Shown piece after piece: positions 5,470 through 23,485 of a stretch of 28,395 nt of DNA. Numbering within the stretch: the first letter of the stretch is position 1; each line of letters starts with the position of its first letter. This DNA comes from a virus. The notes below the pieces were generated by a model. That model searched no databases, was not told the DNA's origin, and worked only from the letters and a program-made list of their open reading frames with translations. Location of the stretch: positions 1 through 28,395 of the IMG/VR virus record IMGVR_UViG_3300009104_000093, one strand, 5' to 3'. The translations under genes were made by a program, and so were the position numbers.

Positions 5470-5482
5470 CTTATCAATGTTT
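5470..5482 (-). promoter_or_regulatory. TATA-like promoter of the XPF nuclease gene
   Basis: On the minus strand this reads AAACATTGATAAG. The same 13-mer recurs at 7964-7976. The 3' A of TTGATA (5472) is 24 nt before the ATG at 5448, the spacing seen for the AACATTTAATA elements elsewhere in the window. It overlaps the stop codon of the 39-residue gene. Archaeal TATA boxes lie about 25 nt before the transcript start, so a very short or absent leader is predicted. Confidence 0.55.
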
Positions 5483-5600
5483 AGATGAAGCAGTCGCCAT
5501 CACCACAACAGGAAACCACCTTGTTATGGCAGTTGATACAGGCTTTAGAACCATGCACTTCAACAAAGCCTCTATCACTTAGACACATAGGACATCTCAT
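5481..5600 (-). CDS. Zinc-ribbon micro-protein, 39 aa
   Basis: A 39-residue reading frame that begins one base after the primase stop codon (TGA-T-ATG), so it is probably translated by coupling. It contains CPMC at residues 3-6 and CINC at 21-24, the two knuckles expected of a zinc ribbon, plus three further Cys near the C-terminus (SCCGDGDCF). It fills almost the whole gap between primase and XPF nuclease, and its stop codon overlaps the nuclease promoter element. Function is unknown; similar small treble-clef or ribbon proteins often bind nucleic acid or a replication partner. Confidence 0.7.
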   Translation of the reverse strand: MRCPMCLSDRGFVEVHGSKACINCHNKVVSCCGDGDCFI

Positions 5601-5601
5601 A

Positions 5602-6642
5602 TCAGACTGCTGCTGCTTCATTCATCTTCACCGTTCCATCATATCGCCAGCATTTTCCTGTGCATAAATTACGCTGAACGAACCAAGCACATGAGGGAGT
5701 GCGAACATATTTCAATGCTGTCCTAACACCCCGTCTGGTTATGCCTTCGTTATAATCCCTCCAACCAAGAGTCGAAATGAAATCAACTATCTCATTCTCA
5801 ACTTCCTTAGTTTGTTCTGGGCTTAGTGAGTCTGGGTGGGCGAACCATCTAAGGTTCTCTCCCATGTGTTGCACAAGAGCAACTCTAACATGGTGTGGTG
5901 GGTTTGAAGTCCTGATTGCTACATTCAGACAATCCGGCAATGGAACACCATTTGCTCCCCCTACTTTGTAGTCCTGAGGAAGCGTGTTCTGGGGGAGAAT
6001 ATCCACCGGATGCACCTTCACCCATTCTGATAGGCTGAAGCCGTCAGCGATGGCTTCCTCACCCCTTAATGGGCAATATATTCTGTTATCTTTGGTGGGT
6101 CTATTCGGTATTGGTTCTCCTGATAGGAAATTGTCGAGTTTCATTACAACAGCCCACCTTCCCCTCTTTGGGTTGTAGGTGTCTGGAATCCTTGTAATCT
6201 TCTCAGGATAACCCACACCATCTAAGGTCTGTAATCCTCGACCCAACATGGTTTCATATCGCTGAATAGCATTACCCCACTCACGGCCACGAAAGACCTC
6301 ATTGAATAATTGATAAACATGAACTCCCCTGCCCGTAGCGACAATCCTAATGTTTCTCTTATTGACTCCGTTTTCTTCCAATCGTCTAACTAACTCTTGA
6401 GAATCAAAAAGTGCCTGTTGTGTGTTGTCGTCGTCGGGGGAGTCGAAATCCCACCACGCCTTGTCGAGAACAGCAGACGAATAATCAAACTTCCAGGGTC
6501 TGTTTCTAAGTGTCCTTTCAAACGAATAGAGGGAAGTGTAGCAAGATGCTCTTCTGTTTAGATTCTTGATGTAGTCTGTGAATTGAGACTTGTCCTTACA
6601 GATGGCTCGCTTTAGGCCGATTTCTCTCGGAAAGGAAATCAA
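5602..6642 (-). CDS. AEP primase: PriS-type catalytic domain fused to a PriL-like Fe-S C-terminal domain
   Basis: 346 residues. It should make RNA or DNA primers for replication. The catalytic AEP signatures are WWDFD (DxD metal site, D65/D67), TGRGVH (104-108, the S/GxH nucleotide-binding motif) and TRIPDTYNPKRG (150-161, third motif region). From about residue 235 the protein looks like the C-terminal domain of the archaeal large primase subunit: LPDC (C238), PPHHVR (249-253), PSC (C318), NLC (C327) and GKC (C331), i.e. four Cys placed as for a 4Fe-4S cluster. Small and large subunits are normally separate proteins, so this is a condensed single-chain primase. The start is TTG at 6642, overlapping the previous stop (TTGA) and preceded by GGGGA six bases upstream; no ATG near the N-terminus would serve. 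Confidence 0.85.
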   Translation of the reverse strand: MISFPREIGLKRAICKDKSQFTDYIKNLNRRASCYTSLYSFERTLRNRPWKFDYSSAVLDKAWWDFDSPDDDNTQQALFDSQELVRRLEENGVNKRNIRIVATGRGVHVYQLFNEVFRGREWGNAIQRYETMLGRGLQTLDGVGYPEKITRIPDTYNPKRGRWAVVMKLDNFLSGEPIPNRPTKDNRIYCPLRGEEAIADGFSLSEWVKVHPVDILPQNTLPQDYKVGGANGVPLPDCLNVAIRTSNPPHHVRVALVQHMGENLRWFAHPDSLSPEQTKEVENEIVDFISTLGWRDYNEGITRRGVRTALKYVRTPSCAWFVQRNLCTGKCWRYDGTVKMNEAAAV

Positions 6643-6806
6643 ACTAATTCCCCATCCACAGTCTTAAAATCCTTCTTGCAGTCCAGACAGGACCATGTTT
6701 CAACAAACACCATTTCCTTCCCCTCTTGCCCCATCAATAGGTAATTGTATTCACTCAGCGTTATTTGAGGGCCGTCGCACATAGGACACGCTAAAATAAC
6801 TCCCAT
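6639..6806 (-). CDS. Zinc-binding micro-protein, 55 aa
   Basis: A 55-residue frame between the Cas4-like nuclease and the primase. It carries CPMC (residues 7-10) and CLDC (39-43 region), spaced as in a zinc ribbon, with a short hydrophobic N-terminus. Its TGA overlaps the TTG start of the primase (TTGA), so primase translation is probably coupled to this gene. It starts 6 nt after the nuclease stop. Function unknown. Confidence 0.72.
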   Translation of the reverse strand: MGVILACPMCDGPQITLSEYNYLLMGQEGKEMVFVETWSCLDCKKDFKTVDGELV

Positions 6807-6812
6807 ACTAAC

Positions 6813-7634
6813 TCACATCGGAGGTTCTGCTATCCCATTTAATTCTTGCTCACAGGATAGGCAAAAATCGCACCACTCAACACAAAAATACTCGTTCCAA
6901 TTCATCGGCCATTCTTGAGCATATATTGCCTTAACAGCCTTGTGCAATTTATCTCGTATTCCGTTCATGGTTCTCTTGTTTATCTTCTCAACCAGCATCA
7001 ATCCTTGATTAACACCGCTCCAGATAAACTTGTTCTTCTTGTTGCTTTCAGCAATGAATAACTTTTCATCAACTGCGTCTGGTGCTATGTATGCAAAATG
7101 AGTTGCCTCTTCACCTAACAAATTGAGCAAGAAAGCGTAATAGGCGAGCTCTCTCCTTGTTCTGCCCAACTTACCTGAATTGAAATTGCCCGTCTTGATT
7201 TCAGTCAAACACAAACCACCATTAGGAGCAGCCATAACCGCATCAATGAAGCCCACCAAATAGACCTGAAATGTTCCGTCTTCGTCTGTGAACTCATACA
7301 TGGTTTCTATTCTTCTCTCAGATTGAATGGTATCGAATAGTTGCTGTTCCTTCCTTTGTTCCTCTATTTCTATGAACGATTGAACGGCTGGCTCATCGCT
7401 TTCCCACCCACCCCAGTCTTCTGGGTTGTTGTAGTAGTCATCTATTAGAGAATGGATTTCAGTCCCACGAATCATTGCTGGTGTGGCGGGTGAGCGCACA
7501 TCAGGCATCCCTACATATCTCCACCAATACTGGCGGGGGCATTGTAGGTAGCCCATGAATGAACTCTTAGACATACGGAGGACTTCTCCTTCCGCAGGAT
7601 TATAAGAGGTGTTGTTGTCGTAAGACATTCTCAT
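6813..7634 (-). CDS. Cas4/RecB-type PD-(D/E)XK nuclease with Fe-S cysteines
   Basis: 273 residues. The core of the PD-(D/E)XK fold is visible: H61 in RGTEIHSLID, D131 in GFIDAV, E145-x-K147 in TEIKTG, and a RRELAYYAFLL helix that matches the Q/Y motif. One Cys near the N-terminus (LQCPRQYWW, C32) and four at the C-terminus (C251, C255, C258, C261) fit the 4Fe-4S clasp of Cas4, AddB and Dna2 nucleases. These enzymes resect or trim DNA ends. No cas1/cas2 or repeats are present, so a role in viral replication, recombination or end processing is more likely than CRISPR adaptation. The ATG at 7634 overlaps the preceding stop as ATGA. Confidence 0.87.
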   Translation of the reverse strand: MRMSYDNNTSYNPAEGEVLRMSKSSFMGYLQCPRQYWWRYVGMPDVRSPATPAMIRGTEIHSLIDDYYNNPEDWGGWESDEPAVQSFIEIEEQRKEQQLFDTIQSERRIETMYEFTDEDGTFQVYLVGFIDAVMAAPNGGLCLTEIKTGNFNSGKLGRTRRELAYYAFLLNLLGEEATHFAYIAPDAVDEKLFIAESNKKNKFIWSGVNQGLMLVEKINKRTMNGIRDKLHKAVKAIYAQEWPMNWNEYFCVEWCDFCLSCEQELNGIAEPPM

Positions 7635-7942
7635 TCCTCTTCAGACGCACCTTGTTGTTCAACCACCATTAGTTGCTCACCACAGCCTGGGCAATCGCTA
7701 TCATCAACATTCCCTTCCTCATCTATTGCTTGGCAGACAACTGCTTCGCACTTATCGCAAGCAGCAATTCTTGCATACCCTTGTTTAACGAGCATGAATG
7801 TTAGCCGTTGGTCTGCTTCTATTTGGCGTTGAACAACTCCCTCAAGGACTTGTTTAATCGCTTCTATTTCCTGTATAATCATTTCATTCTTTGTCGGTTG
7901 CCTCGCATTGCGAAACCCTCGACTACCACCACTACGGCCCAT
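7631..7942 (-). CDS. Zinc-ribbon protein with basic N-terminus and coiled coil, 103 aa
   Basis: Not recognised. The order is a Gly/Arg-rich N-terminus (MGRSGGSRGFRNARQ), a helical segment likely to form a coiled coil (residues ~20-55), then a zinc ribbon with CDKC and CPGC and a Glu-rich tail. A longer frame starts at 8008 inside the polymerase gene, but the ATG at 7942 has GGTGAG six bases upstream and lies 24 nt from a TATA-like element, so 7942 is preferred. The gene overlaps the Cas4-like nuclease start by ATGA. Placement between polymerase and nuclease suggests a nucleic-acid role, but that is inference. Confidence 0.78.
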   Translation of the reverse strand: MGRSGGSRGFRNARQPTKNEMIIQEIEAIKQVLEGVVQRQIEADQRLTFMLVKQGYARIAACDKCEAVVCQAIDEEGNVDDSDCPGCGEQLMVVEQQGASEEE

Positions 7943-7963
7943 ATTATTCTCACCAATCAACGC

Positions 7964-7976
7964 CTTATCAATGTTT
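7964..7976 (-). promoter_or_regulatory. TATA-like promoter of the 103-aa zinc protein operon
   Basis: The minus strand reads AAACATTGATAAG, identical to 5470-5482. The 3' A of TTGATA (7966) lies 24 nt before the ATG at 7942. It sits a few bases after the polymerase stop codon, so it could drive the zinc protein, Cas4-like nuclease, 55-residue protein and primase genes as one unit. Confidence 0.55.
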
Positions 7977-7979
7977 GGG

Positions 7980-10226
7980 TCATAACCAGACCATGCTCCC
8001 AAGACCATTTAGTGCGTTCTGAAGAACAATAGGGTCTTCTCCCATGAGTATGAAGTATGGCTCAACCTTCTTCACAATGAATCTTTCAGCGATATGTCTA
8101 TACCCAAGTTTGGTAAATCGAGGAGACAATCTCAATTCTTGAATATCATCGAATGCTATGTATTTGCCCTCCTCATCCAAAGATACCATGAAAGATGAGC
8201 CAGCACCATACCCTTTACCTAAGTTTCTGTTAGCCCAATCAGCAGCCGCACGAGCCTCGGAAAGCACTTTGTATTGGCTGAGGTCCTTATCAAGTTTGCC
8301 TCGCATACACAGTTCCTCCCACGCATATTCTTTGCTCATAACCTTCTCTATCGTCTTCACTAAATGGTTGCTGATGTATTGGGGGGACAACCCATCTAAG
8401 AGGCCATCCACCACGAACTGCATTGAGTCCTTCATCACTTGAGGCATTCTTGTTTGTTTCATCTCTATACCTTTGATGTAGGTTTGAGGAGGGTGATAGC
8501 CACCATCAGTCCAAGCGACCTTACACGCATACCTGTTCTTAGCCACGATGATTGAGGACTCGCACCACTTCTCGAACTCGGTGATGATAGGGAACATTTC
8601 CTCATTTATGATTCTAAGACTCCTTTCACCATCTTCAGGTGTTTCCATCCTTACGAACACGGAGTCAGTATGCCCATATAGAACCTCATGTCCTAACGCT
8701 TCTGAATGTCGCCTCAATTCACGCAAGGTATTTCTTGAGGTATAGGTGATGGCAGCAGCCACATCGGGGTGGTATAGTCCGTATCGAGAATCACCAGCCG
8801 CACCATACATAGAAGCAACCAGGCTCTTGGTAGCGAATTGTAGTGCGTCATACCTCCTCCGCTCTTCATCGGTTTCGGCCTGTTTCATATTGTGTTTGTA
8901 TTCATTTCTCAATTCAGTCATGTAGTCCATCTGCCGTTGTAGCAGACCTTTCTTTGAGGTATCAAACTTCAGACCGTTTCCTATGTCTTCACCATAGTCT
9001 GAGATATTTTCCCAAGAGATACCATACTTCGCAACATTGCTGTGATACATGGCTCTAATATCGAGTATGCCTATGTTTTCATAGATTCCAGGAACTGGCT
9101 CCATTATATCAGCACCTTCGTAATCCACCTTATCGAATTGAGGTTTAGATGGTATCTTGAATGAGAAATCTCTATCCCTAAGAGCCAAAACAGTAAACAT
9201 CTTAGTGATATATGGAGTGGTTCTCAAATCACATTGGACTAAGTGCTGGATAGCCAAGTAATGCTCTATGCAATTATTGTAGGCATTTAGTCTGGGTAGC
9301 AGCGTCACATCTTTCCTGTTGTAGTCAATGTATGTGCCTATGTCTGAATAGAATGTATTGTGTCCGTCAGGAAGAGCAACCTTCCTATCCCCCAACGCTT
9401 CCCTCGCAGCCGTATCTAACTTCATGTTAGGCAGTTTGCCGTTCTTCATTTGATAGAGTTTAGTCCATGCTTGCATCAGGTCTATTGTGTTTACTCCAGG
9501 AATAGGTTGCGACCAATCATCCTGATATTCATATCGGTGTCTATCCATAGGAGATAGAGTCTTAGCCCCTATATCCCAATGGTCGAGTCGTTCTGCAAGC
9601 ACCCGTATATCAGCACCTGCTACATACCATCCGGCCACAACATCAGGGTCTTGTTTCCTCATGTGCTTAACAAAATGCCTCAACATATCCTTTTCAGACT
9701 TGAAGGCCATTGCCGGAGTTTCAAACTCAACATAGTCAAGACCTTCTGGGTGGTCTTTACAGGGCATCCTTCTAACAGCCCCTTCTTGACTCCATGAGTT
9801 ATTGCATAAAAACCATGTATAGAGTCGCTCGGTATAGGAATCCAATACAGTTATAGCAGTAATCACTCCACTATCCACAGACCACTCCATATCCAAATAC
9901 CAAACTCTATGTTTGTAATCTGGAAAGGTAGTCATCTTGTCTGATAGGACTCTATTGACGAAAGGTATGTTGGCCTCCCATGTCTTCATGCTCTTCTTGA
10001 GTTGGCCCACATCAAAGGGGTCTCGAAAAATACACTTGGTCAGTTCCTCACCATAGATTCCAGTATAACCATCTTGTTTGGCTGAGCATTCAACCAAGTC
10101 AGCATTTTTAGTTTCAACAAAACAGTAGGGCCAAACATCTGAAATTGTATCAACAATGCGCTCAAGTGTTTCTGGATTCCTTCTCCTTATTTGTATAGTC
10201 CGCCCTCTTAATCGTTCAACAATCAT
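7980..10226 (-). CDS. polB: Family B DNA polymerase with 3'-5' exonuclease domain
   Basis: 748 residues; the replicative polymerase. Exonuclease motifs: YLDMEW (D112/E114), WYVAGADIRVL (D206) and YNRKD (Y302-D306). Polymerase motif A is LDIRAMYHS (D389), replacing the usual DxxSLYPS. Motif B is KSLVASMYG (467-475), with Ala where Asn is usual in KxxxNSxYG. Motif C is YGHTDS (517-522); the catalytic Asp521 is kept but the first Asp is His. Later, YIKGIEMKQTRMP matches the thumb-side KxxG region. The length is near that of archaeal PolB. The start has GGGGGG six bases upstream and follows a structured 110-nt intergenic segment. Polymerase and proofreading activity are expected because the metal ligands are intact. 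Confidence 0.95.
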   Translation of the reverse strand: MIVERLRGRTIQIRRRNPETLERIVDTISDVWPYCFVETKNADLVECSAKQDGYTGIYGEELTKCIFRDPFDVGQLKKSMKTWEANIPFVNRVLSDKMTTFPDYKHRVWYLDMEWSVDSGVITAITVLDSYTERLYTWFLCNNSWSQEGAVRRMPCKDHPEGLDYVEFETPAMAFKSEKDMLRHFVKHMRKQDPDVVAGWYVAGADIRVLAERLDHWDIGAKTLSPMDRHRYEYQDDWSQPIPGVNTIDLMQAWTKLYQMKNGKLPNMKLDTAAREALGDRKVALPDGHNTFYSDIGTYIDYNRKDVTLLPRLNAYNNCIEHYLAIQHLVQCDLRTTPYITKMFTVLALRDRDFSFKIPSKPQFDKVDYEGADIMEPVPGIYENIGILDIRAMYHSNVAKYGISWENISDYGEDIGNGLKFDTSKKGLLQRQMDYMTELRNEYKHNMKQAETDEERRRYDALQFATKSLVASMYGAAGDSRYGLYHPDVAAAITYTSRNTLRELRRHSEALGHEVLYGHTDSVFVRMETPEDGERSLRIINEEMFPIITEFEKWCESSIIVAKNRYACKVAWTDGGYHPPQTYIKGIEMKQTRMPQVMKDSMQFVVDGLLDGLSPQYISNHLVKTIEKVMSKEYAWEELCMRGKLDKDLSQYKVLSEARAAADWANRNLGKGYGAGSSFMVSLDEEGKYIAFDDIQELRLSPRFTKLGYRHIAERFIVKKVEPYFILMGEDPIVLQNALNGLGSMVWL

Positions 10227-10237
10227 CCAATCCCCCC

Positions 10238-10264
10238 GTCTATTTTGGGTCTATTTTGACCCAA
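10238..10264. repeat. Tandem 10-mer and perfect hairpin upstream of polB
   Basis: On the plus strand GTCTATTTTG occurs at 10238-10247 and again at 10249-10258 (period 11). The second copy is part of a perfect inverted repeat, TTGGGTC (10245-10251) and GACCCAA (10258-10264), with a six-base loop. It precedes the polB ribosome-binding site. On the minus strand the copies read CAAAATAGAC; the A of AAAATA at 10252 is 26 nt before the polB start, so it may also be its promoter. An operator or origin element is another possibility. Confidence 0.5.
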
Positions 10265-10275
10265 TAGAAGCGCGT

Positions 10276-10334
10276 GTAGCCTTAGAGGTATAGGTGTGGG
10301 TATGAACCCCGCACCGACCCTTAGAGTGGGCTAC
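10276..10334. repeat. 59-nt imperfect inverted repeat (possible structured RNA or cruciform)
   Basis: Outer arms GTAGCC (10276-10281) and GGCTAC (10329-10334) pair. An inner stem pairs GTGTGGG with CCCGCAC (one G-U pair in plus-strand RNA) around a 7-nt loop. It lies just after the ABC-acetyltransferase stop codon and before the polB hairpin. It does not fold as a tRNA. It may be a terminator, leader element or origin component; a 29-codon TTG-started frame also crosses it. Confidence 0.45.
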
Positions 10335-10336
10335 AT

Positions 10337-11491
10337 TCAAATCCATTCAACACCCCCAGCATCAACCTTCCAGCCCCAAAACAATTCGGCTACTTCAGGT
10401 GGTGCTGCCTCTCCTACATATTCAAATGAATAACATTCGCGAGTATTCTGTTTCCAACCCCATTCTTCATTTCCAGGATGAGTATGAACCTTGCGGGACA
10501 CGGCTGTCTCCTTCCAGTTAGGATTATTAAATCTGTGTTTAGCAAAAGCGAAATGAGCATGACGGCTAAAGTAGCGACCGCCTCCAGCCAGAACCATTGA
10601 TGCTATGAAATCAGATAGTTGGACTCCAATACCTAATCCCTGATAATCGGGCAAAACCACAGTACGGCTCGCTCTCCAACCATTCTGAATACCACCGTTA
10701 GGGAACGGCAGGGTGCAAGATATAGCAACAGGTCTGTCTTCCCATGTCGCCACAAAGATTCGAGCAGCGGCATTCAAATCTTCAGTCAGATAGTGATGCG
10801 CTTTGAACAGGTCCCACGCCTCATATTCTGCTCGGAATACTTTGAGGTCAATTTGTGGTCTATGAAAAGACCACCCCCTGTTCTCGTTAATTATGGTTTT
10901 TCCCTCTAAAGGATTATAGACCCAATCAGCGTTCAACCATTCGAGTATATCGTCATGGCAGGAGGCTACGATAACCTTTGCTTCTGACTTACGAATAAAC
11001 TTCTGCAATGCAGATGATGCTGCCTTAGCAACATTCCTATCAACAACTGAAGTAAACTCATCTATTAGAATTACTCCACCATTGACTTGACCGTGAGCAA
11101 CTGCCGCCGCAAGGTTGGCTCTAAATTGCTCGCCGTTTGAAAGTGTGTGAAATGGTCTGCACCATGAAGGAACTGAGGAAAGGCCGACCGCCGAAAGAAT
11201 CCCTGCACTTTCTTCTGGGGTCAGACCAATGCCCCCCACAGACGAAATTATAGACTGGCCGCCTCCCCAGTCGTGCGTGTATATATCTCCAAATGTGCGA
11301 AGTAGCGTAGTCTTGCCTGCTCCAGATGGGCCATAGATACAACCTATTGCCCACTCTTCAGGAGGTCTGATATTGTTAATGATTGTGGTTCTCATTCTGT
11401 CTTCAAGGGGAATGTCGAACATCTTCTCAGCAATTGCTGTGTATTCATCGTGTTGAACATCTGTTTCTAATATGATTTGATTACTCGACAT
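10337..11491 (-). CDS. Soluble ABC ATPase fused to a GNAT acetyltransferase-like domain (COG2401-like)
   Basis: 384 residues in two domains. Residues ~20-205 are an ABC ATPase: Walker A GPSGAGKTT (54-62), signature LSNGE (117-121), Walker B VILIDE (140-145) and H-loop His179. No membrane segment or transporter partner is present. Residues ~215-345 look like a GNAT fold, with the acetyl-CoA loop in TVVLPDYQGLGIG (277-289), preceded by HHYLTEDL and ARIFVATW. The ATPase plus acetyltransferase arrangement matches the family described as COG2401. GNAT-fold proteins include phage Mu Mom, which modifies adenine in DNA, so DNA or nucleotide modification is a possible but unproven role. The ATG at 11491 has GGAGG seven bases upstream and overlaps the winged-helix gene by 11 nt. 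Confidence 0.82.
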   Translation of the reverse strand: MSSNQIILETDVQHDEYTAIAEKMFDIPLEDRMRTTIINNIRPPEEWAIGCIYGPSGAGKTTLLRTFGDIYTHDWGGGQSIISSVGGIGLTPEESAGILSAVGLSSVPSWCRPFHTLSNGEQFRANLAAAVAHGQVNGGVILIDEFTSVVDRNVAKAASSALQKFIRKSEAKVIVASCHDDILEWLNADWVYNPLEGKTIINENRGWSFHRPQIDLKVFRAEYEAWDLFKAHHYLTEDLNAAARIFVATWEDRPVAISCTLPFPNGGIQNGWRASRTVVLPDYQGLGIGVQLSDFIASMVLAGGGRYFSRHAHFAFAKHRFNNPNWKETAVSRKVHTHPGNEEWGWKQNTRECYSFEYVGEAAPPEVAELFWGWKVDAGGVEWI

Positions 11492-11717
11492 TCCTAAGCC
11501 TCCATACTGTCTTGTTAGGTCCGAGAGATATGCTTTCTATGCTGGGAGTACGAGCCATAACATTCACGACCATGTGAATGCTGCCTAATGCTCTTCTCGT
11601 AGTGTGGTTGTAATCGTATAGTGCTTCTTTCATCTCATGAGCACCCCATTCACGATGGGGTTCTCTCTCCATCAATTTGATTATTGATGCTCGCATCATG
11701 TTGTTTCGAGCGGTCAT
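11481..11717 (-). CDS. Small winged-helix DNA-binding protein, 78 aa
   Basis: 78 residues that fit a winged helix-turn-helix: RASIIKLMERE (helix 1), WGAHEMKEALY (helix 2), ALGSIHMVVNVMARTP (recognition helix), and a wing ending VWRLRN. The same architecture is seen in the proteins at 17272-17700 and 24519-24836. The start at 11717 follows GAGGGG by five bases and overlaps the stop of a 44-residue frame as ATGA. It is translated just before the ABC-acetyltransferase gene and may regulate it, but that is only position-based. Confidence 0.72.
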   Translation of the reverse strand: MTARNNMMRASIIKLMEREPHREWGAHEMKEALYDYNHTTRRALGSIHMVVNVMARTPSIESISLGPNKTVWRLRNVE

Positions 11718-11848
11718 ATAGACCCCTCAATAGGTCGGGGGAGGAGGAACGCACACACCACCAAAGCGTCGGGCCAGTTTAGAAAAAAGGAAAGACTATC
11801 CTCCTTCAATCCCGAAAGGATTGCTGACCAACCCCCGTTGAGTTTCAT
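11714..11848 (-). CDS. Micro-protein with hydrophobic C-terminal half, 44 aa
   Basis: This frame joins the clamp gene to the winged-helix gene. Its ATG overlaps the clamp stop (ATGA) and its TGA overlaps the next ATG (ATGA). GGGAGTG lies six bases before the start. The middle and C-terminal part (LSFFLNWPDALVVCAFLLP) is hydrophobic and could be a membrane segment. A small hairpin, CAATCC and GGATTG (11807-11823), lies inside it. The exact overlap at both ends argues that it is coding. Function unknown. Confidence 0.55.
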   Translation of the reverse strand: MKLNGGWSAILSGLKEDSLSFFLNWPDALVVCAFLLPRPIEGSI

Positions 11849-12693
11849 TCGAGCACTCCCGCTTGGAATACCCATGAGTTACCAGGCAGGACCATTAGCA
11901 TTCTAATGCCTTGTCCTTCTGGTCTGAAATCTATGAAGTTAAGTTTGACTTCACCTGAGAATGGCTTTACTATTGTTTCGAGCCCTCCCTCAAAGTCCCA
12001 CTCCCAATGCTGGTCGTAGCCCGTATTCTTTGTTGAGATACTTTCGTCATCAGCAAAGGAAAGTAATTGCGATATTGTTCTGCCCTTGAGTTCGCCTCCG
12101 ACTTCAACAAAGAGTCCGTCGGCATCAACCCTAAACAGGTATCGGTTAAGTTTCTGTCCGTTTATGGAGTCGCAGCGTAGTGCTTCAAAGAGTTCAACCG
12201 CCTCCACAACGAAGCGACAGAATGGCTGACGAGTTGAACCGTCGGCCATAGTGTATGAACCCTCTTCTATATTGAGCCTACCTGATAGGTCTATGGATTT
12301 CGCTTCCCACTCACCAATTGTTTCTGTTGAATGGGGGAATGCTAACCCACCTAAGTCTCCTGTTAGGCTTGTTCTCTTTGAACCTGAGCGAACACGAATC
12401 TTGTTTCCCTCAGTAAAGATATTGACTTGAGAACCATGAGCGTTTAGAACACCCATAAGTCTGTTTATGTCGGGAACACATATTGCTGCCTCACCGTCTT
12501 CACATGGAAGGGTGAATTGAGCCAAAGATGTTTTCCCATCACGAACGAGCGATGTAGTGGATATGAGCCCATCACCGCTCCTCAAGATACAAGCCGTGAC
12601 CTGCTCTTGATTCTTACCAGCGATAGTTTGCTTCCGCTGGGTGAGTTCGAGTGTCGTTCGTAGTGCGTTATTGTTTGTCGTTATTCCAGTCAT
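11845..12693 (-). CDS. Probable sliding clamp (PCNA-like)
   Basis: 282 residues. Sequence similarity to PCNA is weak by eye, but the pattern is consistent with the fold: SGDGLISTTSLVRDGKTS early, then VPDINRLMGVLNAHGSQV and an inter-domain hydrophilic stretch, and a second domain ending in GQGIRMLMVLPGNSW, like the C-terminal beta-strand of clamps. A clamp is expected because PolB and a clamp-loader small subunit are present. The frame extends to an ATG at 12711, but a TATA-like element ends at 12716, 23 nt from the ATG at 12693; GGTGG also precedes 12693. The shorter start is therefore chosen. Other beta-rich DNA-binding proteins cannot be excluded. Confidence 0.58.
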   Translation of the reverse strand: MTGITTNNNALRTTLELTQRKQTIAGKNQEQVTACILRSGDGLISTTSLVRDGKTSLAQFTLPCEDGEAAICVPDINRLMGVLNAHGSQVNIFTEGNKIRVRSGSKRTSLTGDLGGLAFPHSTETIGEWEAKSIDLSGRLNIEEGSYTMADGSTRQPFCRFVVEAVELFEALRCDSINGQKLNRYLFRVDADGLFVEVGGELKGRTISQLLSFADDESISTKNTGYDQHWEWDFEGGLETIVKPFSGEVKLNFIDFRPEGQGIRMLMVLPGNSWVFQAGVLE

Positions 12694-12715
12694 ATTTATA
12701 CCACCAATCATTGCC

Positions 12716-12727
12716 TATTAAATGTTT
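12716..12727 (-). promoter_or_regulatory. TATA-like promoter of the clamp gene
   Basis: The minus strand reads AAACATTTAATA. Its 3' end is 23 nt before the clamp ATG at 12693, which predicts a leaderless or nearly leaderless transcript. It begins at the stop codon of the 36-residue zinc protein. Confidence 0.65.
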
Positions 12728-12837
12728 CATACAGGCACGAATACCATCACACCACAGGTGCAGTTGTAATACGCCGCCTTCAAGTCTGTTTTGAAGTGTT
12801 CGAGTTCCTCTTCACACGAAGGGCATTTCAGAATCAT
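12727..12837 (-). CDS. Zinc-ribbon micro-protein, 36 aa
   Basis: A 36-residue frame with CPSC (residues 5-8) and CTC (26-28), separated by a charged stretch and followed by a hydrophobic end (VMVFVPV). This is a minimal zinc-ribbon layout. Its ATG overlaps the stop of the 52-residue membrane peptide as ATGA, and the clamp promoter starts at its own stop. It is the last of four tightly overlapping micro-genes. Function unknown. Confidence 0.68.
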   Translation of the reverse strand: MILKCPSCEEELEHFKTDLKAAYYNCTCGVMVFVPV

Positions 12838-13274: not shown

Positions 13275-13278
13275 GGGC

Positions 13279-15454: not shown

Positions 15455-15465
15455 GTTTGGGTTGC

Positions 15466-16547: not shown

Positions 16548-16548
16548 A

Positions 16549-16707
16549 TCAGTCTCTCCATTTGTAATTCTTTGTTATTGGTGGTTTTTCGCTCAATTTC
16601 CCGCCGCAGAAAAAGCAGTTCCTACCGTCAAAAGAGGTATGCTTCTTCGCCCTCCACTTACTACAATAATTGCAGTAGCCTACCCATTCAGTCGATGATA
16701 CCAACAT
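16549..16707 (-). CDS. Zinc-ribbon protein, 52 aa
   Basis: Two CxxC pairs, CNYC and CFFC, separated by 17 residues of basic sequence, make a standard four-Cys zinc ribbon. A longer frame begins at 16734 inside the kinase gene but has no ribosome-binding site; the ATG at 16707 follows AGGTG by seven bases and is preferred. It overlaps the kinase end by 20 nt and ends one base before the clamp-loader ATG, so it belongs to that operon. Function unknown. Confidence 0.72.
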   Translation of the reverse strand: MLVSSTEWVGYCNYCSKWRAKKHTSFDGRNCFFCGGKLSEKPPITKNYKWRD

Positions 16708-17263
16708 TTGTGAGCACCTGGTGTATCTGTGCATAGGCTTCGTGTGGAAGCAGGGAAGATGTATCTATGGTAGCAAGATAACTGGAGAAGCCATCCAGAC
16801 CTACCTCCGATGGATGGTTAAGGCTGGTGGGGTCGTTCTTCGCTCCTCTTTCTATTCGAGTTTCTTCGTCGCAATCAAGCCTAATGAGAACTCCCCCTTC
16901 TTCTATTATCATAGTGGCCTCATTCAGATATCTAACATCGTCTATGAAAACTATTGAGTCAGGTGGTATTAGATTCCAGAAGGGGTCATCAAACATGAGG
17001 TCTATCCAGTAGTCATCTCCCCACACTTCTCTCATACCATTACCCCACGCTTGCAGTATAGGTCTTAGTTTCTGCTTATCCATTCCTCCTAAAATGCTCT
17101 TATTGATTCCCATACCCGTTGCTACCTGTTGTCTAACGGGGTCAGCAAAGGATATTCTTCTGGCTTTGCCTGCGTGGTTCTTGAGGAAGAGGTTAGCAAT
17201 GGTGGTTTTGCCGGACCGAAGCCCTCCACATAACCCAACGATGACTATTTCATCCCCGCTCAT
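16688..17263 (-). CDS. Deoxynucleoside monophosphate kinase (phage T4 gp1-like)
   Basis: 191 residues. Phosphorylates dNMPs to dNDPs for viral DNA synthesis. The P-loop is GLCGGLRSGKTT, followed by RISFADPVRQQVA, then LQAWGNGMREVWGDDYW, a segment typical of phage dNMP kinases, and DDVRYLNEATMI with GGVLIRL further on. A TTG-started frame at 17275 overlaps the previous stop, but the ATG at 17263 lies 24 nt from a TATA-like element and is chosen. It may therefore start its own leaderless transcript as well as being read through. Confidence 0.87.
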   Translation of the reverse strand: MSGDEIVIVGLCGGLRSGKTTIANLFLKNHAGKARRISFADPVRQQVATGMGINKSILGGMDKQKLRPILQAWGNGMREVWGDDYWIDLMFDDPFWNLIPPDSIVFIDDVRYLNEATMIIEEGGVLIRLDCDEETRIERGAKNDPTSLNHPSEVGLDGFSSYLATIDTSSLLPHEAYAQIHQVLTNVGIID

Positions 17264-17271
17264 GAATCTAA

Positions 17272-17700
17272 TCAATCGTCATGGGTTATTAAATGTTCCT
17301 TTCTGGAACACCGTAGGCACATTTCAGAATCTTCTGGTAGTATTCTGCTACGGTTGCATTGCGAACACCGTTGAGCCCTCTTGGCTTCGTAGGCATAAAG
17401 GCTGGATATTGGGAGGGACATTACTATATCCTCAACACAAAATATATAACTCCTGTCTATGTCGAAGGTTGGTTTGTTCTTCATCCTTCCACTGCTCGAA
17501 GCCACCTTAGTTGTGCCTACTGTTAGTATGGCTTGAGTCTTGGTGAGTATAGAAGCAAGTGATTGAGCAGATGGCTGGAGTCTGTTATCGAAATAGGATA
17601 ATTTGGACATGAGTTCGAATCTCGACATTTCACCTCGTTCCAATAATATCTGCATAACCGCCCGCCTGAGACGAGAATTGTTGGCGCACGATGCTGGCAT
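17272..17700 (-). CDS. Winged-helix protein with C-terminal zinc ribbon, 142 aa
   Basis: The N-terminal ~75 residues are a winged-helix domain (LRRAVMQILLERGEMSRFEL, then a recognition helix near SAQSLASILTKT). The C-terminus has CSQC and CLRC, a zinc ribbon. This combination is common in archaeal transcription regulators. The ATG at 17700 is about 22 nt from a TATA-like element. It precedes the kinase/loader genes and could regulate them; that is inference. Confidence 0.72.
   Translation of the reverse strand: MPASCANNSRLRRAVMQILLERGEMSRFELMSKLSYFDNRLQPSAQSLASILTKTQAILTVGTTKVASSSGRMKNKPTFDIDRSYIFCVEDIVMSLPISSLYAYEAKRAQRCSQCNRSRILPEDSEMCLRCSRKEHLITHDD
17287..17298 (-). promoter_or_regulatory. 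TATA-like promoter of the dNMP kinase operon
   Basis: The minus strand reads GAACATTTAATA, inside the last codons of the winged-helix/zinc gene. Its 3' end is 24 nt before the ATG at 17263. A short ATG between the two is followed by no useful frame. Confidence 0.6.
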
Positions 17701-17721
17701 GATTTGTCGGCTCCGTGAGGG

Positions 17722-17731
17722 TATTTAATAG
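17722..17731 (-). promoter_or_regulatory. TATA-like promoter of the winged-helix/zinc gene
   Basis: The minus strand reads CTATTAAATA, overlapping the stop codon of the 61-residue membrane protein, with its 3' end 22 nt before the ATG at 17700. It is related to but not identical with the AACATTTAATA elements. Confidence 0.5.
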
Positions 17732-17910
17732 TCTTGGAATGCTGCGGCAAAAACGATAGCATTTGAGTCAATTCCTTCACCATGCTCAACTGTTTCAACA
17801 TGATGAATAGGATAGAGTTCGTAGTCAAGACCATGCACCCTCCACAGGTAAATTGCTGCTGAAATCGTGTAGCCTATCAGCAACCAGAAGATTTGCCACT
17901 CGTTCCCCAT
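17725..17910 (-). CDS. Small membrane protein, 61 aa
   Basis: One clear membrane span near the N-terminus (WQIFWLLIGYTISAAIYLW), then a soluble tail with several His and acidic residues. A GTG start at 17922 is possible, but the ATG at 17910 has GTGG eight bases upstream. It follows the 223-residue unknown gene with little or no gap. Function unknown. Confidence 0.6.
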   Translation of the reverse strand: MGNEWQIFWLLIGYTISAAIYLWRVHGLDYELYPIHHVETVEHGEGIDSNAIVFAAAFQDY

Positions 17911-17912
17911 GC

Positions 17913-18584
17913 CTACAACCACTCAACAATGCTGGTTTGTCGCTTTGCGACTCCCTTTGGCAGTTGGGCGGTATCAACGGCTCTTATCATATTCTGGACT
18001 TCGGGCGCGTGTTTAGAAAGAGTCATCCAATAGATATCTGATATTCGGAATTGGTCGGGGGGAGATGCTTCGGCAACCTTCTTAGTGGGCCAGTCCATTC
18101 TGGTTGATTTAGGCTTTACGCTGAAAGCAAATACAGCATTTGTATATGAGTCAGGTAATGTGAATATGGTTTGTGAGAGAAGTCTTGCCGACTCAATATC
18201 ATTTATGTGGTTTGTTCTGAAGAACGCCATAGTCAATGGGTGAGGCACTTCTGCTATCAAAGGCATGGTTCGCCCCCTATCACTCCAACTGTGCCATGAC
18301 TTCAACTGTCTGGTGAAGCCGACCTTGTTATCTCGCAGGTTGTTATCAATGATTACAAAGTCAGAAGATTTGGCTGTAATCTTAGGCTTCTTGCTGGTCA
18401 CGACTACTAATCTGTGAGAAATGAGTGGCTCCCAAGTAATGCAATCGGCCTCAGTAAACTTGTTAGTGTGGAGAATGTATGTGGTATCAGGTGCTGTGGG
18501 GGGGTAGGTTATCTCATTGTGCATGACTACAAAATCTCCTTGACGAAACTTCTTGTCGTCAGCAGTAAAAATTATGATTCCCAT
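17913..18584 (-). CDS. Unknown protein, 223 aa
   Basis: Not recognised. The sequence alternates beta-strands and helices: VVVTSKK, DFVIIDNNL, then TMPLIAEVPHPLTMAFF, ARLLSQTIFTLPDSYTNAVFAFSV, and a C-terminal helical part. No catalytic motif is visible. Position beside the clamp-loader operon and lack of an RFC large subunit make a loader accessory subunit conceivable, but the sequence does not show it. The ATG at 18584 has GGGGTGA four bases upstream and directly abuts the preceding stop (TAAATG). Confidence 0.8.
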   Translation of the reverse strand: MGIIIFTADDKKFRQGDFVVMHNEITYPPTAPDTTYILHTNKFTEADCITWEPLISHRLVVVTSKKPKITAKSSDFVIIDNNLRDNKVGFTRQLKSWHSWSDRGRTMPLIAEVPHPLTMAFFRTNHINDIESARLLSQTIFTLPDSYTNAVFAFSVKPKSTRMDWPTKKVAEASPPDQFRISDIYWMTLSKHAPEVQNMIRAVDTAQLPKGVAKRQTSIVEWL

Positions 18585-18758
18585 TTAATCACCCCAGAAT
18601 TTTCTCAAAAAAATGCTCATGGTGGAGGTGTGTGGGCTTGGGCGTTGCAATCTAATCTCTCTCCGACCCTTCGCTGGAAGACTACCGTGTGCCTCGTTTA
18701 TCAGTCGTGATGACCTTACTCCTTGCCGTAGTTTTGCCTCCCAGTTCGTTATTCCCAC
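18585..18758 (-). CDS. Basic micro-protein, 57 aa
   Basis: An open frame fills the gap between the chaperonin and the 223-residue gene. It starts with GTG at 18758, preceded by a perfect GGAGG four bases upstream. About a quarter of the residues are Arg or Lys (for example GRREIRLQR), and it ends IFLRKFWGD. Its TAA is immediately followed by the next ATG. No known family; a DNA- or RNA-binding role would fit the charge. Confidence 0.58.
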   Translation of the reverse strand: MGITNWEAKLRQGVRSSRLINEAHGSLPAKGRREIRLQRPSPHTSTMSIFLRKFWGD

Positions 18759-18767
18759 ACTACCTCC

Positions 18768-20231
18768 TTATGTTTCGATAATCAATGTATCTGTTGTTAG
18801 AACCAAACTTGATACTGATGTTGCGGCTCTTAGAGAATTAGCAACGACAGATGCTGGGTCAATAATAATTGAACTGCAAGCATCTATCCAATCTGCTACT
18901 GATATGCCAGCATTATTCGCCAATGTTTCTGCAACTGCCATAAGCCCCTTCATCATAATACCTGAACGGCATAGTGGGAGCATACTGTGGTGTATCACAC
19001 CACCACCTCTTACCACGCCACTTTGAAGAGCGGCTCTTGTAGCATTGATAGAGTCGTCAATTCGCATCTTAGTCTCCATTCCTTCTGCTTCTGTGTTAGC
19101 ACTTATGCTGATGGTCGCTACTCGGCCTTGAAGGTTGGCTATCCTATCAGCCATGACTCGCTTATCCCAATCATGTTCTGATTCCTCCATTGCTTTCCTC
19201 ATTATTGCTTCTCTCTCATTAACATCTTCGTCAGTTTGTTCGTTAAGTGGAATGAGTACTGAAGAGTTATCCCTAACGATAACACTTGCCTCGCCGGACC
19301 AATCTTCCTCAAAGTCCTTCAACCTTTCGCCCAATCCAGACATGATGTGTTTAGCACCAGCCCTACAAGCAATATCTCCTGCTATGTCTTCCTTTTGCTT
19401 GCCCTGACCTGGCAGAACGAGAACCGTAGCATCAACCTTACCCTGAACAACATTCAGCGCGAGCGTATCTAATGCTATCTTGCTGATATTACCACATATC
19501 AAAACCAATGGTAATTTCTCTTCGACTGAATATGTTAGTGCGGGAACGAGTTCTGGGAAGTCATTGATGACCTCATCAGTCACCACCACTATTGCATCTG
19601 TGTATTCGACCTCTTGTTGGTTCTTCATCAAATGTTGTGATGCTGGACCAGAAGAAATCTTCATCCCTTGAATGAAATCGAGTTGGGGGGAATCTGTTAG
19701 GCCGTCAATCATTACTATTGTTCCTGTATCTCCGACAACATTGAAAGCATCCGAGATAACCTTGCCTAACTCCTCATCATTGTTGGCTGAAATGGTAGCC
19801 ACACTCAATAGGCTATCCTCATCAACATCAACAGCCACTTCTCCTATGTGGTGCAATAGTGATAAGAGGTCATCATCTAATTCGCGTTTGAGTTTCTTTG
19901 CACTATTGCCTTCGTTGAGCAGTTGGAATGCGTGAAGACACATTGCTTCAGCCATTATGGTTGCTGTCGTAGTCCCATCACCAGATGCCTTTTGTGCTTC
20001 TTCAGCAACTTCGCGCATTAGCGACGCACCGAGTTCCTCGAATGGGTCTTCGGGTTTGATTTGTCTAACGACAGAAACTCCATCATTAACTACGAATGGT
20101 CTGCCGCTCGGGGCTTTGTATAGGACTGTGTAAGCATCAGGTCCAAGCGTTCCACGAACAGAATCAGCCACCGCTGATATGCCTTTCACCATTGCGGACC
20201 TCGCTTCATTACCCTTTAGTATTTTACTCAT
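18768..20231 (-). CDS. groEL: Group I chaperonin (GroEL-like)
   Basis: 487 residues; ATP-driven protein-folding ring. The sequence follows GroEL rather than the archaeal thermosome: NDGVSVVRQI (equivalent to GroEL Asp52), SGDGTTTAT (Asp87), GMKISSGP at the apical boundary, and RIDDSINATRAALQSGVVRGGG (Asp398). The ATPase aspartates are kept. The C-terminal equatorial part (LDP-like IIIDPASVVANSLRAATSVSSLVLTT) also aligns with GroEL. It is about 60 residues shorter than GroEL and lacks the GGM tail. The ATG at 20231 has GGTGGG six bases upstream and is preferred over the ATG at 20237. It overlaps the end of a candidate co-chaperonin gene. Confidence 0.93.
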   Translation of the reverse strand: MSKILKGNEARSAMVKGISAVADSVRGTLGPDAYTVLYKAPSGRPFVVNDGVSVVRQIKPEDPFEELGASLMREVAEEAQKASGDGTTTATIMAEAMCLHAFQLLNEGNSAKKLKRELDDDLLSLLHHIGEVAVDVDEDSLLSVATISANNDEELGKVISDAFNVVGDTGTIVMIDGLTDSPQLDFIQGMKISSGPASQHLMKNQQEVEYTDAIVVVTDEVINDFPELVPALTYSVEEKLPLVLICGNISKIALDTLALNVVQGKVDATVLVLPGQGKQKEDIAGDIACRAGAKHIMSGLGERLKDFEEDWSGEASVIVRDNSSVLIPLNEQTDEDVNEREAIMRKAMEESEHDWDKRVMADRIANLQGRVATISISANTEAEGMETKMRIDDSINATRAALQSGVVRGGGVIHHSMLPLCRSGIMMKGLMAVAETLANNAGISVADWIDACSSIIIDPASVVANSLRAATSVSSLVLTTDTLIIET

Positions 20232-20454
20232 CTTCATCCCACCCCATTACTTGCATTCTGCCTATCAGCCAGATGTTAGGTGCTACTTCTATATCAGTTT
20301 CGCTCGAACAGAAATAAATGTGTTTGTCTGTGAAGGTGTCGAGTGGGTCATCAATGACTTTCGCTCTGTATTCGCTGATGTTGGATATTAACCCATGCGA
20401 GTGGCTCGTGTTTCCAATCTCAATCAATAAGTTTCCTACTGTTGCCTTAATCAT
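20224..20454 (-). CDS. Candidate divergent GroES-like co-chaperonin, 76 aa
   Basis: 76 residues, directly before and overlapping groEL, which is the usual groES position. The order of hydrophobic strands resembles GroES and T4 gp31: IKATVGNLLIEI, a short loop ending HGLI (compare the GGI/SGLI mobile-loop tripeptide), YRAKVID, DKHIYFCSSE, then EVAPNIWLIGRMQV. It is shorter than GroES (about 97). This is by-eye reasoning and needs structure prediction. A weak TATA-like CATAATA lies 23 nt upstream of the ATG, and AGG is seven bases before it. Confidence 0.45.
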   Translation of the reverse strand: MIKATVGNLLIEIGNTSHSHGLISNISEYRAKVIDDPLDTFTDKHIYFCSSETDIEVAPNIWLIGRMQVMGWDEDE

Positions 20455-20635
20455 TCAAAACCTTCCCTAAATCTCGTATTATGAAGTTCTCCATCCAGAA
20501 CCAAAATGTTGAAGCCACATCATCTCCGTCTTTGTGTTCCAGAAAGAAGTTTTCGTTCTCATCTAATGCTTCTCTAACGAAGCGCTCGAACAGTTCTTGA
20601 AGACACTCAAATCCTTCTTCAGGAGTTGATACCAT
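20447..20635 (-). CDS. Small acidic helical protein, 62 aa
   Basis: Unknown. It is mostly helical, acidic and aromatic (LQELFERFVREALDENENFFLEH, FWFWMENFIIRDL). A longer frame begins at 20686, but that would overlap the preceding gene by 68 nt; the ATG at 20635 follows GGGGTGG by six bases and overlaps by only 17 nt. It overlaps the candidate co-chaperonin start by 8 nt, so the three genes through groEL form one unit. Confidence 0.65.
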   Translation of the reverse strand: MVSTPEEGFECLQELFERFVREALDENENFFLEHKDGDDVASTFWFWMENFIIRDLGKVLND

Positions 20636-20873
20636 CGAAGCCACCCCAGGGATTCTCAGCCAAAACATACGCTCTAAATCGTGCATATTGTGATTGAGTT
20701 AATCCATATACCTCCATTAGTGCTGTATTAGTTATTCGGAATCTTCCTACATACCAATGCAGACCATCGGGCTTTAGAGCGCACCATACGCCTTCGCCCT
20801 TCATGTCCGCAACTAATACTGGGTATTGTCTTCGGGTTATATATGTTGCTATGAGTCGCCTTTTCCTTTTCAT
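20619..20873 (-). CDS. Unknown small basic protein, 84 aa
   Basis: Begins MKRKRRLIATYITRRQYP, strongly basic, then a compact mixed domain (GVWCALKPDGLHWYVGRFRITN) and a helical end. No family recognised. The ATG overlaps the previous stop as ATGA and has GAGGAGA four bases upstream. A weak AATTATA lies 24 nt before the start, similar in position to the other promoter elements. Confidence 0.68.
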   Translation of the reverse strand: MKRKRRLIATYITRRQYPVLVADMKGEGVWCALKPDGLHWYVGRFRITNTALMEVYGLTQSQYARFRAYVLAENPWGGFDGINS

Positions 20874-21493
20874 ATTGTCTCCTCAAAATCTGCGTCTATA
20901 ATTGGTGGCCCTTCTATGAGCATCATCTCGTCTTGAATCTTATCCAGTATATTTGGGTGCTCAACCAAGTTAGCAACGAGAACTCTCATTATGTGGTCTT
21001 GTCTGCCTTGTAGTAGTAGTATTTGTGATTCGACTCCGATTTCCTTTTTGAGCGTTCCCACCAATTTCAAACAGCCCTTTAATTCACCTACGAGTCGAGT
21101 AGCCATAGCGACCCATTCAGAATCCATGCCTTGCTCATTCTTTATGTTTTCCCACTCATCAACCCATGTTAGGACTCGTTGGGCTACGCTCTCCGCCGTG
21201 TTGAGTGTGCTTATAGATTCTTGACGCATCTTCTCGACATGGACTTCTGCTTCGGGGTCAGACCCTAAGTGGTCGGTCATGTGTTGCATAACAGTCCCTA
21301 AAGGCCAGCGCAGTTTGGTTTCTAAGAAGGCTGCTGTTGATTCACCGTTCTGGTATCGCCTTTCTATATCAGTTCTTTGTGGGTGAGAACAGAATGGGCA
21401 TCCGGTATCTTCTATGACCCACAACAGGCCCTCGACCACGCGGTCATCCGTTTCATCAGCAATCCTTCTTTCAATTTCTCTCAACGAGCGCAT
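20870..21493 (-). CDS. Zinc-containing HTH DNA-binding protein, terminase small subunit-like
   Basis: 207 residues. Residues ~28-72 contain TGCPFCSHPQRTDIERRYQNG, STAAFLETKLRWPLGTVMQHM and a DHL end, a layout (CxxCxHP...IE...G.S......H..HL) seen in phage DNA-binding and terminase small-subunit proteins. A long amphipathic helix, probably a coiled coil, follows (residues ~85-165), then an acidic C-terminus. No large terminase is in the window to confirm packaging. The ATG at 21493 has GGTG six bases upstream; GTG at 21502 and ATG at 21499 are alternatives. Confidence 0.6.
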   Translation of the reverse strand: MRSLREIERRIADETDDRVVEGLLWVIEDTGCPFCSHPQRTDIERRYQNGESTAAFLETKLRWPLGTVMQHMTDHLGSDPEAEVHVEKMRQESISTLNTAESVAQRVLTWVDEWENIKNEQGMDSEWVAMATRLVGELKGCLKLVGTLKKEIGVESQILLLQGRQDHIMRVLVANLVEHPNILDKIQDEMMLIEGPPIIDADFEETI

Positions 21494-21929
21494 CTTCATC
21501 ACCTATTAGTTCCAGCAAGTCCTTTTGTAGTCTTTGGTCTGACTTTATAACTGCTCTTGCCGCTTCGACTGTATCGGCTATACCCCATTCGAACTCAGGA
21601 GAACTGATGAGTGGCATACCAGTCATATTGTATGCTTGTAGTGAAACTCCCTTATCTTTCATTATGACGAGGTATTCATCTCCCTTAGTGCTTATTGGAG
21701 AAATGAGTGGTTCTATATCATCACCCCACTGTAATTCTGATTTGAACCGGCTCATAGATTCATCTTCAAACAATGCTGATACCCAGTCAGGTATTTGGTT
21801 TTCCATAATCACCCATGAGTAAACCCAGACATCACAGGATAACCCACCATAGAAAAACTTGTTCGGGTCAGATATTGTTTCTGATATTTGTTTTGGTAGG
21901 CTATCCCAACTGGCTCTTTCCATCTTCAT
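21471..21929 (-). CDS. Unknown protein, 152 aa
   Basis: No motif recognised. The first half is mixed alpha/beta with several Trp (CDVWVYSWVIMENQIPDWV), the middle has short strands (DEYLVIMKDKGVSLQAYN), and the C-terminus is a helix (TVEAARAVIKSDQRLQKDLLELIGDED). The start at 21929 overlaps the previous stop as ATGA and is 24 nt from a TATA-like element, which supports it over the ATG at 21923. Confidence 0.75.
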   Translation of the reverse strand: MKMERASWDSLPKQISETISDPNKFFYGGLSCDVWVYSWVIMENQIPDWVSALFEDESMSRFKSELQWGDDIEPLISPISTKGDEYLVIMKDKGVSLQAYNMTGMPLISSPEFEWGIADTVEAARAVIKSDQRLQKDLLELIGDEDALVERN

Positions 21930-22108
21930 ATACCACCATAGCCTCCCTGAGCTATTAAAGGAAGATTGAGGTTAGTTATGAGTATTAAGTGTTTTGCATC
22001 AATTGGCTCACCAAATTGAGGAGGAGGATAGCACAAGCCATTAACCATGAAGCAGATAAAGCAGTGGTTAGCGTCATCACGCCGAGCAACCAACCACCAA
22101 TCACTCAT
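21926..22108 (-). CDS. Unknown small protein, 60 aa
   Basis: 60 residues starting MSDWWLVARRDD, with CFICF and a further Cys mid-protein, and a hydrophobic strand (HLILITNLNLPLI) near the end. Not recognised; three Cys are too few to claim a zinc ribbon. Its ATG overlaps the end of the MCM-like helicase gene by 8 nt, and its TGA overlaps the next ATG. Confidence 0.65.
   Translation of the reverse strand: MSDWWLVARRDDANHCFICFMVNGLCYPPPQFGEPIDAKHLILITNLNLPLIAQGGYGGI
21953..21961 (-). promoter_or_regulatory. TATA-like promoter of the 152-aa gene
   Basis: The minus strand reads CCTTTAATA inside the 60-residue gene. Its 3' end (21953) is exactly 24 nt before the ATG at 21929. It could drive the run through the terminase-like, co-chaperonin and groEL genes. 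Confidence 0.52.
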
Positions 22109-23450
22109 CAGGACTACCCCATTTAATAGCCTTCTCTTTCTTCTTCACGGCTTCAGATGGGGCTGGGTTTCCTATTCGGCAGACTACTCCGCGCCTACCA
22201 CGCCCTTCCTTATTTGGAGTGAACTCAGAATACCAGGGTTGGTCTTTCAATGATTCTTCTATCCATCTTCTTGCTGACTGATAATCTCCCATAGTCACCA
22301 TTCGAGCAACCTCCTTAATCATTTGGCTCTTAGGCATATCCTTCATCCAGAAGGTTGAGCGTATCAATTGTATATCAGCATCCATAACATTCCTTCTTTG
22401 CAGCAGGCTTGTTTCAAGTAATTCAGACAATCTATCATCGAGGCCAACCATCATCACTTTACCACCCCACTCCCATGTCGGTTGCATCATGTGGTAGCCA
22501 AGAGCCAACCTACGGAACAGGTCGGCTTCAAAGGAGCGCACCTCCGGTCGAGATAACCAATCGCTTAAATCGTCGCTGAAATAAACTCCCTTTGGGGGGT
22601 TGAGCATAACGGCTTGTTGCCTCTTGATAAACCACTGCTTCAGAAGTATGGCTTGGTCTGCTAACAAGACCCTTTCATCAGTATTCATGTTAGATTGTCT
22701 GGCTTGTGCCTGCTTGAAGAACAACTCCTTAGCAGGATTCATTTCAATCTCAATGATGAAGAACCTACGGTCGAGGCCGGACTCCAATTCAAATCGTGCG
22801 GGTTGAGTTCCAGCCCATATCGTATAGCGAGTGTCGTAGCGCACCCAGCCAGACTTCATGGCCTTATTCACACGCCCATTATCAGTTGATGTAAGCAGTT
22901 GGTTCTTCATGTCTATTGAGTGGTCTTTCGACATAGAGTCAGTTAGTGCCGAGAATTCCTCAAATCCTAAGAAGCCGCCACACATTTCTCTGGCGAGCGG
23001 TCTGCCGGTTATGTTCCCTTCTTCATCCACAGACCCAAACATACCTGCTTCGGTGATTGAGTTCGGACCAATCATAGTGCTGAACCCTTCACCAATATCT
23101 GAACGAGAAGAATGCAATAGACCTGTTCTTTCGGCCAAGAAGAAATCAACCAGAACAGATTTACCCGACCCCTTCTGACCTCGCATTAGAATGTGAATGC
23201 GAGTGTCTGGCAATTTGCTCATCGGAGTATAGATTGGGTTATTGTGATGCCTCAATGGGCAGTAAGGAATGGTAAATGCTCCAGGATTATCTTCGTGCTT
23301 ATCAGGGTCGAAGTCGCACATCGAGCACTTGTTGACGGAGTTAAACAGATGAGCACCTATACTACAAATGAATATGGGTAATTTATCCTCAACATCTATG
23401 AGGTGATTCTTAGCAGCAAAATCAAGCACTTCATCGAATACATCAGTCAT
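22101..23450 (-). CDS. MCM-like AAA+ ATPase, probable replicative helicase
   Basis: 449 residues. The ATPase core has Walker A RGQKGSGKS (90-98), Walker B GFLGFEEF (159-166), sensor-1 region AGTQPA (213-218) and an Arg-finger segment LESGLDRRFF (222-231), in the order of MCM-family helicases. The N-terminal part has four metal ligands (C42, C45, C64, His68 or His69) like the MCM zinc site. Residues ~250-330 are helical and the C-terminus is basic (KKKEKAIKW). It is shorter than cellular MCM (about 650-700), which suggests a reduced N-terminal domain. With PolB, primase and loader present, a helicase role fits. The ATG is 24 nt from a strong TATA-like element. Confidence 0.77.
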   Translation of the reverse strand: MTDVFDEVLDFAAKNHLIDVEDKLPIFICSIGAHLFNSVNKCSMCDFDPDKHEDNPGAFTIPYCPLRHHNNPIYTPMSKLPDTRIHILMRGQKGSGKSVLVDFFLAERTGLLHSSRSDIGEGFSTMIGPNSITEAGMFGSVDEEGNITGRPLAREMCGGFLGFEEFSALTDSMSKDHSIDMKNQLLTSTDNGRVNKAMKSGWVRYDTRYTIWAGTQPARFELESGLDRRFFIIEIEMNPAKELFFKQAQARQSNMNTDERVLLADQAILLKQWFIKRQQAVMLNPPKGVYFSDDLSDWLSRPEVRSFEADLFRRLALGYHMMQPTWEWGGKVMMVGLDDRLSELLETSLLQRRNVMDADIQLIRSTFWMKDMPKSQMIKEVARMVTMGDYQSARRWIEESLKDQPWYSEFTPNKEGRGRRGVVCRIGNPAPSEAVKKKEKAIKWGSPDE

Positions 23451-23473
23451 ATATCACACCATCCGTCTTAGGT

Positions 23474-23485
23474 TATTAAATGTTT
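23474..23485 (-). promoter_or_regulatory. TATA-like promoter of the helicase operon
   Basis: The minus strand reads AAACATTTAATA in a non-coding stretch, 24 nt before the ATG at 23450. Because it lies outside any gene, it is the cleanest example of the recurrent element. Confidence 0.7.

Follow-up and report, generated by a model that had tools for sequence, protein, structure and literature searches.

The window and its seven TATA-like boxes

The window was a whole IMG/VR virus record of 28,395 bases, a fragment of a virus. Its minus strand holds all the large genes from about 4.75 kb onward, and one long ORF of the plus strand ends at 4761. The gene set includes PolB, an RFC small subunit, a PD-(D/E)XK nuclease and a chaperonin, and fits an archaeal virus. 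An earlier note had placed a TATA-like element before seven minus-strand starts, and all seven were present where claimed. Counted to the A of ATG, the last base of each is 22-24 nt upstream, as the note had given; the gap itself is 21-23 nt. The boxes are listed below, with distances as intervening nucleotides.

5472..5477, minus strand: TTGATA within AAACATTGATAAG, 23 nt before ATG 5448 of the ERCC4-domain nuclease gene 4753-5448
7966..7971, minus strand: TTGATA within AAACATTGATAAG, 23 nt before ATG 7942 of gene 7631-7942
12716..12726, minus strand: AACATTTAATA, 22 nt before ATG 12693 of gene 11845-12693
17287..17297, minus strand: AACATTTAATA, 23 nt before ATG 17263 of the P-loop kinase-like gene 16688-17263
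17722..17731, minus strand: CTATTAAATA, 21 nt before ATG 17700 of gene 17272-17700
21953..21959, minus strand: TTTAATA, 23 nt before ATG 21929 of gene 21471-21929
23474..23484, minus strand: AACATTTAATA, 23 nt before ATG 23450 of gene 22101-23450

Exact AACATTTAATA occurs three times in the window, on the minus strand only and only at starts 12693, 17263 and 23450. Gene 11845-12693 is putatively sliding-clamp-like, judged by gene position. Gene 22101-23450 is AAA+ helicase-like by sequence motif, and gave no match in Pfam. The earlier statement that most copies overlap the upstream gene holds for the box of 17263, which falls within the 3' end of gene 17272-17700. It extends to the boxes of 17700 (overlapping the stop codon of small ORF 17725-17922) and 21929 (inside small ORF 21926-22108) if these two small ORFs are real. 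It does not hold for the other four: the box of 7942 starts directly downstream of the PolB stop codon, and those of 5448, 12693 and 23450 lie in longer intergenic gaps.

Two of the starts are rivalled by upstream in-frame ATGs (12711 for 12693, 8008 for 7942), which a longest-ORF caller would take. Promoter position and homologues clearly favour 12693 over 12711 and, less clearly, 7942 over 8008; start 7942 is supported by a homologue in related locus L002. For the chaperonin (18768-20237), an alternative start at 20231 instead of 20237 is possible. Elsewhere in the window, 10337-11491 encodes an ABC-type ATPase part and a GNAT acetyltransferase part in one protein, and 27183-27707 an Api92-like protein with a DUF1281_C domain.

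The best solved relatives of the clamp loader were archaeal RFC small subunits, and those of the chaperonin were group I GroEL, not archaeal thermosomes. Magrovirales are viruses of Poseidoniales and include Aoguangviridae and Apasviridae (PMC10768690, PMC12999244). They are described as carrying PolB, a clamp loader and a GroEL-type chaperonin, with replication and structural gene clusters opposed (PMC10768690, PMC12999244). The window matches this description in both gene set and opposed arrangement. Its virus is most probably a magrovirus of Poseidoniales, and its probable hosts are marine Group II archaea. The Aoguangviridae type virus encodes TFB (PMC10768690), whereas no virus-encoded TFB was detected in 26 records here using PF00382, and PF08271 gave sub-threshold fragments only. 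Genome contigs were searched for a host genome, yielding only one contig, in an Altibacter bin. This contig (L032, NZTP01000016.1 of an Altibacter MAG) encodes a PolB 28% identical to that of the window virus and is perhaps a mis-binned viral contig.

Positional enrichment and conservation

Two IMG/VR scans with the polymerase produced 102 related loci (1.6 Mb including the window), which fall into 13 polymerase clusters; the window groups with L002, L033 and L034. The chaperonin was also used as search bait and found no relatives. In the window, a TATA-like hexamer begins at -32..-27 in 8 of 34 minus-strand starts. The same hexamers at random positions gave a mean of 0.46, with none of 5000 samples reaching 8, and were found at 4 of 581 other minus-strand ATGs. 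Allowing up to two mismatches, AACATTTAATA matched 16 times over the whole window against 12.1 expected, which is not above chance. The window signal is purely positional, and not a motif excess over the whole window.

As part of the hexamer list had come from the window itself, the independent test was made on related viruses. The first ATG of each called gene was taken (some of these starts are wrong), near-duplicate upstream regions were removed and the window was excluded, finally yielding 873 starts. Hexamer matches peaked sharply at -31..-28 (23, 56, 43 and 26 matches), whereas almost every other position had 0 to 8. At -32..-26 a hexamer was present in 15.9% of starts; at -60..-54 the figure was 1.8%, and at internal ATGs it was 1.0%, so that the starts exceed internal ATGs about 16-fold in a position-specific manner. 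In no cluster with more than 10 starts did the share fall outside 9% to 22%. The enrichment implied by the earlier note was thus found in both the window and its relatives. Exact AACATTTAATA-N-ATG was absent from 18 related records, so the 11-mer is particular to this virus. Among the matches listed for the collection-wide patterns AAACATTTAATA-N-ATG and TTATATASTGGCG-N-ATG, most were chance or coding.

Conservation of the box was counted in non-redundant homologues with starts placed by homology. A TATA-like box was found in 16 of 47 homologous starts of the clamp-like gene (12693), 15 of these 16 with a pyrimidine at -1. It was found in 18 of 40 for the nuclease gene (5448), 12 of 28 for gene 17700 and 5 of 15 for the kinase-like gene (17263). 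The nuclease family is odd in that only 9 of its 18 TATA-bearing homologues have a pyrimidine at -1. PolB has the box in 20 of 44 homologous starts, and the window's own PolB is without a clear one. For gene 23450 the box is common to the two closest relatives only (GCATTAATAACC and GTTAATAAAG). Gene 21929 has a single homologue, distant and without TATA, and for this gene as for gene 7942 the homologues are too few for a judgement. Where a window gene lacks a box, its homologues mostly lack one too (0 of 19 for 18584, 0 of 17 for 21499 and 1 of 37 for 15395).

Start-site geometry and competing readings

In archaea the TATA box has its centre about 27 nt upstream of the start site (PMC5316973), which is a purine following a pyrimidine (PMC7289017). 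Here the spacing was fixed, with the centre of the TATA-like box about 26-27 nt upstream of the start codon, and the step from pyrimidine at -1 to purine at +1 coincided with the start codon. Among the 873 starts, a pyrimidine stood at -1 in 116 of 136 with TATA (85%) and in 308 of 737 without (42%; P = 5e-22). The share was 92% with the box beginning at -30, the highest among well-filled classes, dropping to 62% with the box at -31 and lower still further upstream. In the window, T or C was found at -1 in 7 of 7 claimed starts and in 8 of 27 others. Because the -1 pyrimidine is enriched at TATA-bearing starts, it lends specific though indirect support to the A of ATG as the predicted +1.

Where the upstream gap was 16-40 nt, 58% of starts carried TATA, and of genes overlapping their upstream neighbour 2% did. 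A Shine-Dalgarno match of at least 5 was found in 37% of overlapping genes and 44% of genes with a 0-15 nt gap. The fixed distance, the -1 pyrimidine and these gap classes all support the leaderless reading proposed in the earlier note. The boxes are very probably archaeal core promoters giving leaderless mRNAs, in the replication genes of a probable magrovirus. Host TBP would bind the box (TTTAATA, TTGATA or TTAAATA), whose centre lies about 27 nt upstream of the start codon, with TFB on the flanks. RNA polymerase would thereby be set to start at the A of ATG, after the pyrimidine, producing a leaderless mRNA. Within the block of replication genes the boxes may act as promoters, at operon heads or internally. 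A gene that overlaps the one upstream has no such box and would depend on Shine-Dalgarno sites in polycistronic mRNA.

Upstream neighbours were present for 278 TATA-bearing starts (not deduplicated); at 53 of these the box lies in or overlaps the upstream ORF, and 115 boxes begin no more than 10 nt from the upstream stop. Some TATA-bearing starts retain a Shine-Dalgarno site and may be translated both ways. Because such sites are enriched at TATA-bearing starts (a match of at least 5 in 22%, with none in the other 78%, against 4% of internal ATGs), double use, from an own leaderless mRNA and a read-through mRNA, is plausible. This was the weaker part of the earlier note, its Shine-Dalgarno component being borne out and its double reading only compatible with the data. 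In some genes of L004, L005, L007, L017, L065, L069 and others, the same promoter was seen 37-48 nt before ATG, with a Shine-Dalgarno site in the predicted short leader.

The same Shine-Dalgarno enrichment would also suit a bacterial-type or T4-late-type -10 element (TATAAATA), with leaders of about 20 nt carrying the site. A T4-like cyanophage, used as a control, has the same hexamers near -30 at 6 of 56 starts, and such hexamers alone do not prove an archaeal promoter. The intended positive control, the haloarchaeal virus HVTV-1, has a G+C-rich genome and gave almost no matches to them. We consider a -10 element very unlikely: the replication genes are archaeal, and the pyrimidine at -1 is found in only 3 of the 6 cyanophage starts against 85% of the TATA-bearing starts here. 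Shine-Dalgarno matches are moreover rarer at TATA-bearing starts than at the others (22% vs 29%).

Little weight is likewise given to the boxes being operators for a viral or host regulator rather than start-setting TATA boxes. What speaks for an operator is STGGCG, which in PolB clade 12 adjoins the TATA boxes of five gene families unrelated to one another. The flanks differ by lineage, however, and most lineages share the TATA-like core only; the constant spacing from ATG, together with the pyrimidine at -1, indicates an element that sets the start. Cluster 12 has TATATA[G/C]TGGCG, clusters 4, 5 and 7 often have GGGTTTATA..GACAT, cluster 8 has ATGTTTATAT, and the flanked forms in the window are AACATTTAATA or CATTGATAA. 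AAACA precedes the box in several window copies, with GGG or ATG there in other lineages. Least probable of all are chance AT-rich stretches near starts, with which the lack of AACATTTAATA over-representation across the window would agree, and which the window enrichment, the position-specific excess in independent relatives, the gene-specific conservation and the -1 pyrimidine contradict.

The core promoter reading may have a lineage-specific extension, clearest in PolB clade 12 (TATATA[G/C]TGGCG). Held-out testing, done by gene family, gave the downstream element of cluster 12 a gain of +6.4 to +9.0 bits in 5 of 9 families; the gain was strong in clade 12 only and is not established for the window's own clade. 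It is conceivable, though rather doubtful, that magrovirus lineages evolved their own composite core promoters. A fixed-distance TATA box with an abutting lineage-specific element would then be recognised by a virus-encoded or virus-adapted factor, setting viral promoters apart from those of the host and marking a temporal gene class. TATATA[G/C]TGGCG was seen 25-28 nt before ATG at several unrelated genes of one polymerase clade (L007, L010, L013, L014, L017, L021, L023, L025 and L027); an example of the composite form is L010:7878-7895. At L021:4985-5010 the TATA box is enclosed by an inverted repeat (CGCCAGTA...TACTGGCG) that includes TGGCG and whose upstream arm is absent from most other TGGCG copies.

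Comparison with known promoters

All that is known of magrovirus-type viruses comes from metagenomes, and the literature examined is silent on their transcription. In the open-access magrovirus literature no promoter description was found, and the open-access literature yielded nothing joining 'leaderless' and 'Poseidoniales'. With TATA at about -30 and a pyrimidine at -1 as a positional rule, start codons and operon heads could be called from sequence, and the predictions that follow are specific and cheap to check in seawater metatranscriptomes. A concrete lead to promoter recognition specific to the virus comes from the TGGCG element found in one lineage.

The kind of promoter is already known from archaea; what is new is the virus group, for which the open-access literature gave no promoter description. 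In Haloferax volcanii 72% of coding transcripts are leaderless (PMC4983044, PMC5316973). The leaderless TATA promoters of Haloferax volcanii, Sulfolobus solfataricus and Thermococcus onnurineus share with those described here a box centred about 27 nt upstream, a purine after a pyrimidine and a start at ATG (PMC4983044, PMC5316973), whereas the present ones belong to virus genes and are predicted from sequence only. The promoters of HFTV1, a haloarchaeal tailed virus, were found by RNA-seq, and the text of that paper mentions neither TATA nor leaderless mRNAs (PMC12542753); those reported here are predicted, many per genome and with fixed spacing. The two sets are alike in placement, as the promoters of HFTV1 also lie inside apparent operons, one of them inside a gene (PMC12542753).
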